This document shows positions 51,468 to 57,112 of a stretch of 64,000 nt of DNA, piece after piece (position 1 is the stretch's first letter; each line of letters opens with the position of its first letter). Where the stretch lies: positions 124,001 to 188,000 of the forward strand of contig CALUJY010000007.1 in the NCBI GenBank assembly GCA_944321085.1, in the 5' to 3' direction. The position numbers were made by a program, and so were the translations under genes. Source of the DNA: an uncultured Barnesiella sp. (GTDB lineage Bacteria > Bacteroidota > Bacteroidia > Bacteroidales > Barnesiellaceae_A). The notes beneath the pieces were generated by a model, which worked only from the letters and a program-made list of their open reading frames with translations, was not told the DNA's origin and searched no databases.

Positions 51468-52346
51468 TTATACATAATATAGGTCGTCGCGTTTCATGCG
51501 GATGTAACGGTTGACGGCAAAATAAGCCGATATGGACGTGAGCAAAATGCCCAGCACCAGCACGATGGCATATACACAGAGCAGAGTGGGCAGCGTAATG
51601 AGCGAGTAGAAGCTGTCGAACTCCGAGACGATATACGAGACGCAGCCCGTGAGCAACAGGATGGCGAGGATGGCGGCAATGATGCCGCTGATGATGTTGC
51701 TGACGATAAAGGGGCGTCGTATAAATCCCGGTGTGGCACCCACCAGCTTCATGGTGTATATGATAAATCGCCGGCTGTAAGCCGTGAGACGTATGGTGTT
51801 GCTGATAAGTACGTATGATATGACCATCAGTACGGCTGCCAATATGAGCAGTATGAGCCCTATGTTGCGCATGTTTTCGTTGACCGACTGTATGAGGTCT
51901 TTTTGGAATTGTATGTTGTCGATGAATGCGTTCTGCATCAAATCCTTTTCTATAACTGCAATGCTGTCGGGGTTAGCATATTCGGCTTTGAGTCTCACTT
52001 CGATGGAGGCTTGCATGGGGTTTGTCCCCAAAACCTCTTCGGGATTTTCGCCTAATTCAATCATAACCTCTTTCAAAGCATCTTCTTTCGAGATGTATTG
52101 GGCTGCCTTGACGTAAGGAGCCTGCCCGAGGCTGTTTTGCAAGTCGGATATTTGGTTGTCGCGTGCCGATTCTTTCAAGACTATGGAGAAGCCGATGTTT
52201 TCGCGTACGTATATAGATAGGTTGTTGGCAAGAACGCCCAGCAATGCCATGATGCCGAGGATAAACAGCACCAGCGAAACGCTTAGCGTAGAGGTGATGC
52301 GGGCCTCGAGAAACGAGAAACGTTTTTTCTTTTTAGGATTGCTCAT
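51468..52346 (-). CDS. ftsX: Cell division protein FtsX
   Basis: A 292-residue permease-like protein with four transmembrane helices: near residue 25, then after the extracytoplasmic loop near 170, 215 and 260. The loop (about 45-160) contains SIVLKESARDNQ and the ISKEDALKEV segment typical of FtsX. With the ATPase FtsE, not encoded here, it controls septal peptidoglycan hydrolases. The gene overlaps the preceding methyltransferase by 4 bases (ATGA). Confidence 0.95.
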   Translation of the reverse strand: MSNPKKKKRFSFLEARITSTLSVSLVLFILGIMALLGVLANNLSIYVRENIGFSIVLKESARDNQISDLQNSLGQAPYVKAAQYISKEDALKEVMIELGENPEEVLGTNPMQASIEVRLKAEYANPDSIAVIEKDLMQNAFIDNIQFQKDLIQSVNENMRNIGLILLILAAVLMVISYVLISNTIRLTAYSRRFIIYTMKLVGATPGFIRRPFIVSNIISGIIAAILAILLLTGCVSYIVSEFDSFYSLITLPTLLCVYAIVLVLGILLTSISAYFAVNRYIRMKRDDLYYV

Positions 52347-53251
52347 TGCGGTAAAGTATTGTGTTTGAGTGTATATATAATGTAACAGCCGTTATCGGCT
52401 TTATATTGGTCTTTCGAGGCTGTTTTGAAGCCTTCGATGCAACCCTTCGAGAGAGCTGCCGCTTGTTTGCGGTATCGGGAGCGAAGCAGTTCGCAGGCTG
52501 TTGCGGCGGCTACATTCATAGCCCTGTTGTTTTGTTCTTTTACGATTCGCATGTTGTTATCGGCTGCAAGTCGCTCGAAAGCCTTGCGGCTGAAAAGGAA
52601 TGTGGTGTGAGCCATGAGACAATGCCATATCTCTTTGTGGCGTGAGGCTATGGCCGATGCCGGGTTGTATAGGGCAACGATGAGTGTGCCGTCGGAAGTC
52701 AGCAGATCGCACATGGCTTTGAAGCTCTTTTGTGGGTCGGCGGTTTTGCCAATGAAATCCCATGCTGTCACCACATTGTATGAGCAAGGGCGTATGCGGT
52801 AGAGCATCTCTCCTTTCTCGATATGGAGGTTATAGTGCGAGTTGCTGTATTCGCGGGCGTTGCTGTTGCTTTCTATTCCATGTGCAATCCACCCGCGTCG
52901 TCGCATGGCTGCGATGAAGTCGCCTCTGTGACATCCTATATCGAGCAGTACTCCGCTTACCCTACCGGCTTCGCGCTCTGTGATGCGGGTCTTTTGTCGA
53001 CTCCAAGTGTGGCGCAAGGTATTGTAGCAACGGCTTATGATACCGTTTTTGGGGGTTGCCTGCAACGCCCCGTCGACGGCATAGATGCCGGTGTCGCCAT
53101 TTGTTGTGGCTTCGGGACTTCTTCTGACAAGCCCGCAGTCGGGGCAGAGCAGTACCTCGAATGTATCTTCCTCGTTCGCGGCACACGTACATACGTGTGT
53201 CCAATGGTTTCCGTTGCACACGGGGCAGGTATTTATCGAGGCTTTTGCCAT
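52343..53251 (-). CDS. Class I SAM-dependent methyltransferase with N-terminal zinc ribbon
   Basis: A 302-residue protein. The first 45 residues hold two CxxC pairs (CPVC and CPDC, plus an inner CTC) that can bind zinc. The methyltransferase domain has the SAM loop VLLDIGCHRGDFIAAM (about 102-117) and the acidic VVTAWDFIG. The last 90 residues are helical. The combination matches bacterial methyltransferases that modify sugars or other small molecules; the substrate is unknown. It overlaps ftsX by 4 bases and seems to open this operon. Confidence 0.88.
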   Translation of the reverse strand: MAKASINTCPVCNGNHWTHVCTCAANEEDTFEVLLCPDCGLVRRSPEATTNGDTGIYAVDGALQATPKNGIISRCYNTLRHTWSRQKTRITEREAGRVSGVLLDIGCHRGDFIAAMRRRGWIAHGIESNSNAREYSNSHYNLHIEKGEMLYRIRPCSYNVVTAWDFIGKTADPQKSFKAMCDLLTSDGTLIVALYNPASAIASRHKEIWHCLMAHTTFLFSRKAFERLAADNNMRIVKEQNNRAMNVAAATACELLRSRYRKQAAALSKGCIEGFKTASKDQYKADNGCYIIYTLKHNTLPQ

Positions 53252-53469: not shown

Positions 53470-54639
53470 TTAGTTGCCTTCTCTGTGTTCGAAAAGATAG
53501 GTGTAGAGCCGCCTGTCGGCATCGGTAAGTGTCTTGTGACGGCGAGCCATCATGCGCTCGGCAATATCGAAGAAGCGAACGAGGGGCACCTCTTTGAACC
53601 CTTGTGCTCCACCTTCGGAGAAAGAGGGGATGTAAGTGCGCGGGAACCCCGGTCCGTATATGTTGCATCCTACACCGGTCACGGTGGCTGTATTGAACAT
53701 TGTATTGATACCGGCTTTGCTGTGGTCGCCCATGATGAGCCCGCAGAATTGCAACCCCGTTTTCCTGAATTGTCGCAAGGGGTAATTCCATAATTTTATT
53801 TCGGCATAGGTGTTTTTGAGGTTCGACGAGACGGTGTCGGCACCCAAGTTGCACCATTCGCCTACGACAGCGTTACCCAGAAATCCGTCGTGCGCTTTGT
53901 TGGAATAACCGGTCATGATGACATTGTTGAGCTCGCCGCCCACTTTACAGTATGGGCCTAAGGTAGTGGGACCATATACCTTGGCGCCCATGTTAAGTAC
54001 GGCATGGGTGCACATGGCAAACGGGCCGCGTACGGCGCAGGTTTCCATTATTTCGGCATCGGCGCCTATGTAGATAGGTCCGTGGGTGGTATTGAGTGTT
54101 GCGCATTCTACGACGGCTCCCGGTTCTATGAAGAGTTGCGAGGCGTCGCCTATGAGGGTGCATGTCGTGCTGAGGGGGGCACTCTCTCTGCCTCGGGTGA
54201 TGCGGGCAAAGTCGGCTGTTATGGCGTCTCCGTTTTTCCCGAAGAGGTCGTATGGAAATCTTATGCAATCAGCGGGTGCAGCAGGCGCGATTTTTCGTGC
54301 TGCCGCAGTGTGTTCGGCCGAAAAGGCAGCTCCGCGGTATGCCCATATTTCATCGTCGTCGGCGATGGCCTCGCCGGGTTGCAGTGCGGCAATCTGTTCA
54401 GCCCATTGCGGTGTGGCTATGAGATGCCCGGCGATGTATATGTTGTCGCCGGTGAGGTGTGCGGGATATTTTTCTGCCAGATAAGGTTCCGTGAGATAAG
54501 AGTAAGTTCCCGGTAAGAGCGCTTCCCATTTTTCACGCAGGGTGTTGATGCCCAATCGTAGGTCGGCAATCGGCCTTGTAAAGGTGAGAGGCAGCAGGTT
54601 GCCGTGCTCGCGAGCGGTATCGAAGAGAATGATGTTCAT
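53470..54639 (-). CDS. Bacteroidota-type bifunctional GlmU-like enzyme
   Basis: A 389-residue protein of the alternative GlmU family (TIGR03991) of Bacteroidota. The N-terminal part is a divergent nucleotidyltransferase that starts NIILFDTAREHGNLLPLTFTRPIADLRLG and lacks the usual LAAGxGTRM loop. The C-terminal half is a left-handed beta helix with hexapeptide repeats (for example GPIYIGADAEIM, GPTTLGPYCKVGG). It would acetylate glucosamine-1-phosphate and add UMP, giving UDP-GlcNAc for wall and lipid A. The start at 54639 is supported by the -7 box at 54718-54725, which excludes an ATG at 54720. Confidence 0.88.
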   Translation of the reverse strand: MNIILFDTAREHGNLLPLTFTRPIADLRLGINTLREKWEALLPGTYSYLTEPYLAEKYPAHLTGDNIYIAGHLIATPQWAEQIAALQPGEAIADDDEIWAYRGAAFSAEHTAAARKIAPAAPADCIRFPYDLFGKNGDAITADFARITRGRESAPLSTTCTLIGDASQLFIEPGAVVECATLNTTHGPIYIGADAEIMETCAVRGPFAMCTHAVLNMGAKVYGPTTLGPYCKVGGELNNVIMTGYSNKAHDGFLGNAVVGEWCNLGADTVSSNLKNTYAEIKLWNYPLRQFRKTGLQFCGLIMGDHSKAGINTMFNTATVTGVGCNIYGPGFPRTYIPSFSEGGAQGFKEVPLVRFFDIAERMMARRHKTLTDADRRLYTYLFEHREGN

Positions 54640-54717
54640 CATTGCAGTTTGGATTTTGGATTGATTTTGTCGGGCGGCATCCGATAAACTTTTTGTCGCA
54701 CCGTTGTGTTTGATAGG

Positions 54718-54725
54718 CAAAGATA
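54718..54725 (-). promoter_or_regulatory. -7 element of the GlmU-like gene
   Basis: TATCTTTG on the minus strand fits TAnnTTTG. It would start the RNA about 70 bases before the gene. No clear TTTG is present at -33. Confidence 0.45.
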
Positions 54726-54784
54726 ATGTTTTTGTTCGGTAATCGACGGATTATGGTTGTAATAATAAAACGAAACGGTAAATT

Positions 54785-56437
54785 ATGGGCGGAATTGCAG
54801 GAATAGTCGGGGGGATGGATGCCTTGGAACAGCGACTGCGCAGCATGTTGCACGAACAGTGTCATCGTGGTAAGATAGGTGACAGGGTGTATATTGCTCC
54901 GTTTGTTGATACTTTCATCGGGTTGGGGCATAATGCTCCGGTGCCCGCAGGAATGGCAGATAATGCGTCGCAGCCGTTTGTCGATGAGAGTGTATCGTTG
55001 GTGGTGGCGATGGATGGCGACCTGTATAACTGCCGTGAATTGCGAGGCATTTTGTCGCACTATTACAGATTTGCCACCGATGCGGCGATAGAGATAGTGG
55101 CAAAGGCATACCGGCATTGGGGACAAGAGGCTTTTTCGCGTCTCGAAGGGGTTTTTGCATTGGTTATCTATGACCTGTTGACCGATACTTTGCTGTTGGT
55201 GCGCGACCGTTTTGGCGTGAAACCGCTCTATTATGCTACGAAAGGAGGCGATTTGTTTTTTGCTTCGGAGGTCAATGCGCTTTTTGCGGCCGGACTAAGG
55301 CGGCAGCTTTCTGTTTACCGTTGGGCGGGTTATATGACATATTCGTCTTACGGTTGCCCATATGAGACGTTTTGGGACGGGGTACACCAGTTGCCTGCCG
55401 GATTTATGTTGTGTTATAATGGCTATTCTCTCTATGAGCGGGGTTGGTATGACTTGCAGGAGGAGATAGAAAAACTGCGGCAAGAAAAAGAGACGTCTTT
55501 GAAAGAGTTCTTTGTTTATGAGTTGGAGCGGTGCGCCGAGCGTAGCTTGTCGGATGTAGAGTCGTGCGGTTTCAGGATAGGCGACCGTGTAGAGTCGCAG
55601 CTCCTTTACGGGCTGGCGGTGCATGGTGTTTATGCCGATAAAGTATTGCCGTGGCGCGAGTTGCCCGGAGAAGATACTGCGTGCGAGAGCGGGTCGGGCT
55701 GGACGGTGGTTACCACGCAGCGGGCAATCGACGAATTGGAACGGATGCCCGAGTGGTTAGAAGAACCGTTCGATGGCGTAGAGAGTGTTGTGCGGTCTAT
55801 TTTATTTCGCCGGGCGGCAGCCTGTGGTGGAGCTATGTTGTGCAGCGGCGTAGGGTTGGATGTGATGTGGCAGGATGTATGGGACAAGTCGGAGGTACAG
55901 TACGACTATTTATCCGCATCGCCTTTGTTTTCGCCCGAACTGGCCGCGTTAGCGTTTCGTCCGCATTATCCGCACCCGTTTGACAATGAAGCGGCCAATA
56001 TGCGCTATCTTGACTTGTATTGCGAACGGTTGCCCCATATTTTGCGGTTTTTCGACCGTTCGGCAGCCGAGGCCGGCGTGCAGGTACGTATGCCGTTTTT
56101 GGCATCGGCGCTTGTTGTCCTGTCGTTTGTGTTGCCCGAAGTGAGTCGGCGGGCTCGTAAGGCTTTGTTTGACGATTGTACGATGTGGCGTTATGCCGTG
56201 CGATACGACCGTAGGGAGAGTCTCCCGGTGTGGCCTGTGTGGTTGGGCGGCGGGTTGAAAGAGTGGATAGCCGATTCGTTGGGAGACCTGAGAAGCAGCT
56301 CGGTGCGCGATTGGTTCGATGTCAAGGCGTTGACGCAGATGCAGGCCGATGTTGGTGCCGGTTATCCTGTCGATGCTGCTTTGTTGTGGAAATGCCTCGC
56401 TTTACACCGGATGTTGATGGCAGATGTCTCTTTGTAG
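54785..56437 (+). CDS. Asparagine-synthetase-like protein with lost catalytic motifs (probable pseudoenzyme)
   Basis: A 550-residue protein with the two-domain layout of AsnB. The glutaminase half keeps structural segments (LEGVFALVIYD, RDRFGVKPLYY at 140-150, FFASEVNALF), but the catalytic Cys2 is Gly (protein starts MGGIAGI), the Arg of the LxHRRLS segment is gone (LGHNAPVP), and the NGE motif reads DGD (77-79). The synthetase half keeps the fold (VRMPFL, LKEW), but the PP-loop SGGLDSS is replaced by RIGDRVES (264-271) and SGDGGDE by SGVGLDV (354-360). A TAA codon lies just upstream in frame, so no longer start exists. Neither glutamine hydrolysis nor ATP-dependent amidation seems possible; a binding or regulatory role is inferred. 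It is divergent from the GlmU-like gene. Confidence 0.88.
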   Translation: MGGIAGIVGGMDALEQRLRSMLHEQCHRGKIGDRVYIAPFVDTFIGLGHNAPVPAGMADNASQPFVDESVSLVVAMDGDLYNCRELRGILSHYYRFATDAAIEIVAKAYRHWGQEAFSRLEGVFALVIYDLLTDTLLLVRDRFGVKPLYYATKGGDLFFASEVNALFAAGLRRQLSVYRWAGYMTYSSYGCPYETFWDGVHQLPAGFMLCYNGYSLYERGWYDLQEEIEKLRQEKETSLKEFFVYELERCAERSLSDVESCGFRIGDRVESQLLYGLAVHGVYADKVLPWRELPGEDTACESGSGWTVVTTQRAIDELERMPEWLEEPFDGVESVVRSILFRRAAACGGAMLCSGVGLDVMWQDVWDKSEVQYDYLSASPLFSPELAALAFRPHYPHPFDNEAANMRYLDLYCERLPHILRFFDRSAAEAGVQVRMPFLASALVVLSFVLPEVSRRARKALFDDCTMWRYAVRYDRRESLPVWPVWLGGGLKEWIADSLGDLRSSSVRDWFDVKALTQMQADVGAGYPVDAALLWKCLALHRMLMADVSL

Positions 56438-56707: not shown

Positions 56708-57112
56708 ATGCCTACAATTCAGCAGTTAGTAAGAAAAGGACGGGTTGTTTTGGAAGACAAGAGTAAATCGCCGGCACTCGATTCGTGTCCTCAACGTCGC
56801 GGCGTGTGCGTGCGTGTTTACACTACAACTCCCAAAAAACCTAATTCGGCTATGCGTAAGGTGGCTCGTGTGCGCCTGACAAACGGAAAAGAAGTGAACT
56901 CTTACATTCCGGGCGAAGGTCATAACTTGCAAGAGCACTCTATCGTATTGGTTCGTGGCGGTCGTGTAAAAGACCTCCCCGGTGTACGTTATCACATTGT
57001 TCGCGGTACTCTCGATACGGCAGGAGTAAGCGGTCGCTTGCAACGTCGTTCGAAATACGGAGCCAAAAGGCCGAAAGCAGGGGCTGCACCTGCGGCAAAA
57101 GGGAAAAAATAA
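56708..57112 (+). CDS. rpsL: 30S ribosomal protein S12
   Basis: A 134-residue S12 with the conserved decoding-centre segments [13 protein letters not shown] and [14 protein letters not shown]. Both lysines at the positions where streptomycin-resistance changes usually occur are the ordinary Lys, so the gene looks streptomycin-sensitive. The basic tail ([12 protein letters not shown]) is longer than in E. coli. First gene of the operon. Confidence 0.98.

Follow-up and report, generated by a model that had tools for sequence, protein, structure and literature searches.

A gene in a 64,000-nucleotide stretch of DNA from an uncultured Barnesiella sp. (hereafter the window) raises the question of what a protein is kept for when it has the two-domain architecture of an AsnB-type asparagine synthetase and the catalytic motifs of neither active site. 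A preliminary description, made from the letters of the sequence alone, had claimed that this architecture is preserved in a frame intact over 550 codons; the frame indeed runs from ATG to TAG (Table 1), and the architecture is borne out by Pfam, by structure prediction and by the best structural match (Z 33). The Pfam search matched the window protein to GATase_7 (PF13537; 3.8e-30, 104.9 bits against a gathering threshold of 25), to GATase_6 (1.4e-23) and, weakly, to Asn_synthase (PF00733; 36.9 bits against a gathering threshold of 21), the last match beginning at profile position 78, beyond the PP-loop. The score for TIGR01536, the Asn synthase equivalog, was 144.1 bits, below the curated cut-off of 267.1. 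AlphaFold, supplied with 32 aligned sequences, predicted a structure with pLDDT 85.8 and pTM 0.89, a model biased towards the canonical fold because its alignment included catalytic AsnB sequences of viral origin (pLDDT was 45.7 with 9 close sequences and 85.8 once 23 viral relatives were added).

Structural matches of this model span nearly the full length of the protein (7ylz, 1ct9, 6gq3), with Z scores of 23-33 to AsnB, ASNS, TsnB9 and the beta-lactam and carbapenam synthetases, as expected of the AsnB-type fold that joins an Ntn glutaminase to a PP-loop ATPase domain. The closest is TsnB9 (7ylz; Z 33.4 over 513 aligned residues at 20% identity), which its PDB title describes as an AsnB-type hydroxyamidotransferase, whereas the window protein is without the catalytic motifs of that family. 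E. coli AsnB (1ct9, Z 30.7) and human ASNS (6gq3, Z 28.5) share the two-domain fold and possess the catalytic motifs, all of which, as far as tested, are lost in the window protein. The beta-lactam and carbapenam synthetases (1jgt and 1q15, Z 23-26) are known members of the fold without glutaminase chemistry that retain the ATP-pyrophosphatase PP-loop; the window protein differs from this Cys-less type in that its PP-loop is gone.

The losses reported for Cys2, the glutamine-binding Arg, NGE, the PP-loop and SGDGGDE all proved real in the motif comparison, although the PP-loop replacement, given earlier as RIGDRVES, had been started two residues early (GDRVESQ being residues 266-272). In human ASNS, Arg48, Val52, Asn74, Gly75, Glu76 and Asp96 bind glutamine and stabilise the thioester (PMC6748925). 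Their counterparts in the window protein are mostly lost, the glycine being retained: HNRLSI of the catalytic relatives reads HNAPVP, and the Asp preceding EV in the glutamine pocket is missing. With this pocket gone, the proposed sensing of nitrogen or glutamine finds no footing. On the synthetase side Glu327 and Asp359 are retained and new Arg and Cys residues have been fixed in the old cleft; Arg268 and Glu270 of the PP-loop region are invariant across the genus, and Glu327, Pro328, Asp330 and Gly331 persist in 16 of 16 aligned members. Since the same motifs are absent and the frames intact in all nine species of the genus, neither chance nor sequencing error explains the losses. Predicted structure, structural matches and motif losses together point to an intact architecture from which both classical catalytic centres are absent.

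Table 1. Features of the window gene, its product and its flanks (positions are those of the window).
Feature	Position	Strand	Basis
Divergent glmU-type gene (UDP-GlcNAc diphosphorylase / GlcN-1-P acetyltransferase)	53470..54642	-	TIGR03991, 403 bits vs cut-off 225
TATCTTTG, Bacteroidetes -7-like element (TAnnTTTG) towards glmU	54718..54725	-	consensus match only
ORF of the window protein (putative AsnB-fold pseudo-amidotransferase)	54785..56437	+	CDS, ATG to TAG, 550 aa
N-terminal Ntn glutaminase-like domain, ~residues 1-220; C-terminal synthetase-like domain, ~235-550	window protein		Pfam, AlphaFold, structural match
Codon 2: Gly replaces catalytic Cys (MCG -> MGG); Ser in the other 8 genus species	54788..54790	+	
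Codon 51: Ala where human ASNS has the glutamine-binding Arg48	54935..54937	+	motif table, PMC6748925
Codons 77-79: DGD for NGE (glutamine pocket / thioester stabilisation)	55013..55021	+	motif table, PMC6748925
Codons 266-272: GDRVESQ for PP-loop SGGxDSS	55580..55600	+	motif comparison
Codons 326-331: EEPFDG	55760..55777	+	alignment of 16 members
Codons 354-360: SGVGLDV for SGDGGDE-type motif	55844..55864	+	alignment, motif comparison
rpsL, first gene of ribosomal-protein cluster, downstream anchor	56708..57112	+	

The same losses extend well beyond the window. Nine genomes of f1, the GTDB family of the window organism, were examined, all of one genus and including the window genome itself (G000); each holds a single intact orthologue, which shares 44-54% identity with the window protein, and all nine are without Cys2 (Ser in eight, Gly in the window species), the Arg and the PP-loop. 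In named records eight members of the genus are 'Bacteroidaceae' MAGs from ruminant rectum or colon. Across 393 Bacteroidales genomes, a profile search retrieved seven more full-length relatives, from families f109, f60 and f88, separated by a wide step in score (429 bits for the relatives vs 171 bits for the next match). An orthologue, partly decayed, occupies the same locus in nine of nine f109 genomes, and the 18 species of f1 and f109 show no frameshift or stop. A contig search using the window protein alone as query gave no match; with the alignment it returned the eight genus members, one unrelated amidotransferase and nothing else.

Selection was assessed with custom-written pairwise codon models, omega being taken from the closest pairs only because distant f1 pairs were saturated (median dS of the gene 23.9). 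The three closest f1 pairs gave omega 0.083-0.094 at dS 1.55-2.2 (LRT against omega=1 of 299-308) and f109 pairs gave 0.08-0.12 at dS 0.3-1.3; over the closest pairs of both families the LRT ranged from 157 to 354 and neutrality was rejected, in agreement with the earlier proposal that selection maintains the gene. Median dN was 0.30, compared with 0.13 in glmU and 0.04 in queA (about 2 and 7 times as high). On this codon record the window protein is one that evolves rapidly under clear constraint. Homologues keeping Cys and PP-loop beside a lone, frameshifted or relaxed window copy had been named as evidence against a maintained function; such relatives do exist (f60, f88), but the window copy is neither lone nor frameshifted nor relaxed. 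A lone pseudogene was rejected by the 18 intact orthologues and an omega of about 0.1.

How the two centres were lost can be followed in the tree, where f1 and f109 group with support of 100/99 and, with f60 and f88, form a 21-row clade (100/100); this clade and a canonical one from nonulosonic-acid (NulO) operons together make up one side of a 100/100 branch. Descent from a canonical asparagine synthetase was rejected, the tree placing the window protein on the NulO-operon side. The NulO-operon proteins (L173-L179), from other Bacteroidia, are about 570 residues long, align co-linearly with the window protein and are canonical at the motifs tested; they sit beside NeuB-, NeuC- and NeuA-type genes of nonulosonic-acid synthesis, whereas the window gene has glmU and rpsL as neighbours. 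The f60 and f88 relatives retain Cys2 and the PP-loop LSGGxDSS; the Asn of NGE is already Asp in them, and two of the three are also without the glutamine-pocket Asp. In f109 the PP-loops are of the types LDGGVESA (DGGVESA) and LNGNLESA (NGNLESA), the SGDGGDE motif is emptied and residue 2 is Cys in four and Ser in five of nine species; in f1 all tested motifs are gone, Cys2 and the PP-loop included, with Ser2 in 8/9.

The PP-loop Asp has become Glu in 18/18 f1 and f109 sequences and in 0/10 catalytic-type relatives, and since this change is fixed in both families, ATP chemistry would most simply have been lost before they split. Cys2, as read from the alignment, is lost at least twice, in f1 and separately within f109, and the whole is a series in which a putative glycan-cluster amidotransferase grades into a twice-inactivated protein. 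Eighty columns are invariant in ten catalytic-type relatives, 55 of them still in f109 and 45 in f1, while 21 residues are newly fixed in f1, many of them within 254-270 and 318-367, stretches close to where the synthetase motifs used to be. At columns 299 and 477 all f1 sequences have gaps, synthetase-domain blocks of the catalytic relatives being missing there.

The amino-sugar link suggested from the divergent neighbour is weak. At every f1 and f109 locus checked the gene is indeed flanked by glmU, whose conservation the preliminary description had thought worth checking, and by rpsL; in family f25 (G032), however, glmU and rpsL are adjacent with no homologue of the window gene between them, so that the linkage may reflect a vertically inherited insertion site only, and no glmU was found at the f60 and f88 loci examined. 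An amino-sugar or glycan origin is suggested from elsewhere, namely by the NulO operons of the sister clade and the neighbours in other families: rmlC (dTDP-4-dehydrorhamnose 3,5-epimerase) directly downstream in nine of nine f109 genomes (TIGR01221 for one member) and, in a different neighbourhood, in f60 genome G067, and a short family-2 glycosyltransferase directly upstream in G264 (f60) and G095 (f88). At the f1 locus rmlC is absent. From these neighbours the ancestor was most likely a glycan-cluster amidotransferase; the link of f1 itself to glycans is circumstantial, drawn from that ancestry and from what flanks the gene in the other families. In Tannerella forsythia an asnB belonging to the O-glycan cluster has a proposed role in making an acetamidino group (PMC6120980) and can be likened to the NulO-operon proteins by description only.

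With the catalytic residues lost while the predicted fold and the gene are kept under purifying selection, the window protein has the sequence hallmarks of a pseudoenzyme. We therefore consider it probable, at roughly 0.6, that it is a conserved pseudoenzyme with a likely non-catalytic binding or regulatory role in envelope-glycan metabolism, the loss of both activities, the glycan pathway in f1 and the role itself being what we infer from the data above. An AsnB-type amidotransferase belonging to a set of surface-glycan genes probably became placed between glmU and rpsL in a common ancestor of the two Bacteroidales families. ATP-PPi chemistry would have gone first, with the PP-loop Asp changing to Glu and then the entire loop being replaced, with glutaminase chemistry following later, on more than one occasion, while strong purifying selection preserved the fold. 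Most probably the interface retained between the domains, together with the synthetase cleft in its remodelled form, would now bind a protein or a small ligand of envelope-glycan metabolism, and the window protein would thereby regulate or scaffold another enzyme.

Could the protein still make asparagine? AsnRS is present in 9/9 f1 genomes, and searches with positive controls found no AsnA, GatB or other AsnB in any of them, so that a cryptic synthetase would fill a gap in a genus without AsnA, AsnB or GatCAB that seems, by every route tested, to be an asparagine auxotroph. Nevertheless, the PP-loop and glutaminase residues are missing, the tree places the protein outside canonical AsnB, and uptake of asparagine in the gut is a simpler account. 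Moreover, AsnA and/or canonical AsnB occur alongside the members in f109, f60 and f88 (canonical AsnB was found in neither of two f109 genomes, G215 and G360), which argues against an asparagine enzyme there and indicates that the window protein is not a relic of asparagine synthesis; we give the idea almost no credence. For f1, with no second AsnB, a dead partner in a heterodimer with an active AsnB was rejected. Scarcely better placed is a functionless former amidotransferase on its way to loss, very improbable in our judgement: a dN high for the neighbourhood and a shortened, motif-free synthetase domain would suit it, against which stand 18 species of two families without stop or frameshift, the low omega of the closest pairs with its LRT, and a fold predicted intact in its entirety.

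A regulator tied specifically to GlmU and UDP-GlcNAc supply would be a special case of the pseudoenzyme reading. The head-to-head arrangement at all checked f1 and f109 loci speaks for it, as does the UDP-GlcNAc 2-epimerase (NeuC) in the sister clade's NulO pathway, but the glmU-rpsL adjacency exists independently of the gene in f25 and glmU is missing from the f60 and f88 loci examined, which leaves this version improbable. More deserves to be said for an enzyme with its old sites rebuilt, either as an Ntn hydrolase with a Ser nucleophile, in most species, or with a new chemistry in the cleft (Arg264, Arg268, Glu270, Glu327, Cys261). Ser2, found in 8/9 f1 and 5/9 f109 species, could be the Ntn nucleophile for a different substrate, and an omega of about 0.09, the 21 newly fixed residues, the retention of Glu327 and Asp359 and the new Arg and Cys residues all agree with such a course. 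Gly2 in the window species speaks against Ser2 as a general explanation, however, and the glutamine-pocket Arg, Asn and Asp are lost in f1, several PP-loop positions differ between species and synthetase-domain blocks have gone in all f1; we regard a new enzyme as rather unlikely.

Among kinases, proteases and some metabolic enzymes, pseudoenzymes are a familiar phenomenon. Our searches for an AsnB pseudoenzyme or a catalytically inactive AsnB returned nothing relevant in the literature covered, most subscription journals lying outside that scope; pseudoenzymes as a kind are already known, but no doubly dead AsnB whose intermediates survive came up in the literature searched. That a doubly inactivated AsnB serves two families as a dedicated UDP-GlcNAc or envelope-glycan regulator or ligand binder, with the intermediates alive in its relatives, we put forward as a tentative possibility. 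The order of the two-site loss can be read from living relatives, from intact through PP-loop gone with Cys2 kept to Cys2 gone, and these intermediates are ready material for studying an amidotransferase turning into a non-enzyme. The gene also carries a warning for annotation, as it passes the Pfam thresholds for a class II glutamine amidotransferase and an asparagine synthase in a genus that seems unable to make asparagine by the routes tested.

Some further features of the locus were recorded. The element TATCTTTG occurs in 6/8 f1 intergenic regions, and no clear promoter was found in the intergenic region on the window gene's own strand. GCTCCTC, the reverse of a Shine-Dalgarno sequence, lies no more than about 25 bases ahead of the start codon in five f1 intergenic regions (54643-54784 in the window and its equivalents), and AAACCATTT is conserved farther upstream in 6/8. 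The window gene had no PADLOC match as a defence gene. In G215 (f109; L115, 10400-14220) two extra genes of 693 and 577 aa separate rmlC from rpsL, the first TonB-receptor-like by its start; neither is present there in the remaining f109 loci that were read through. AsnB-type amidotransferases are common on predicted viral contigs (L180-L213), with the SGG motif in all ORFs extracted. Finally, at 52343-53251 on the minus strand, adjoining ftsX, a zinc-ribbon and methyltransferase-like gene has an omega of about 0.10 and is about 30% identical within the genus, against some 75-79% for the nearby ftsX and glmU.
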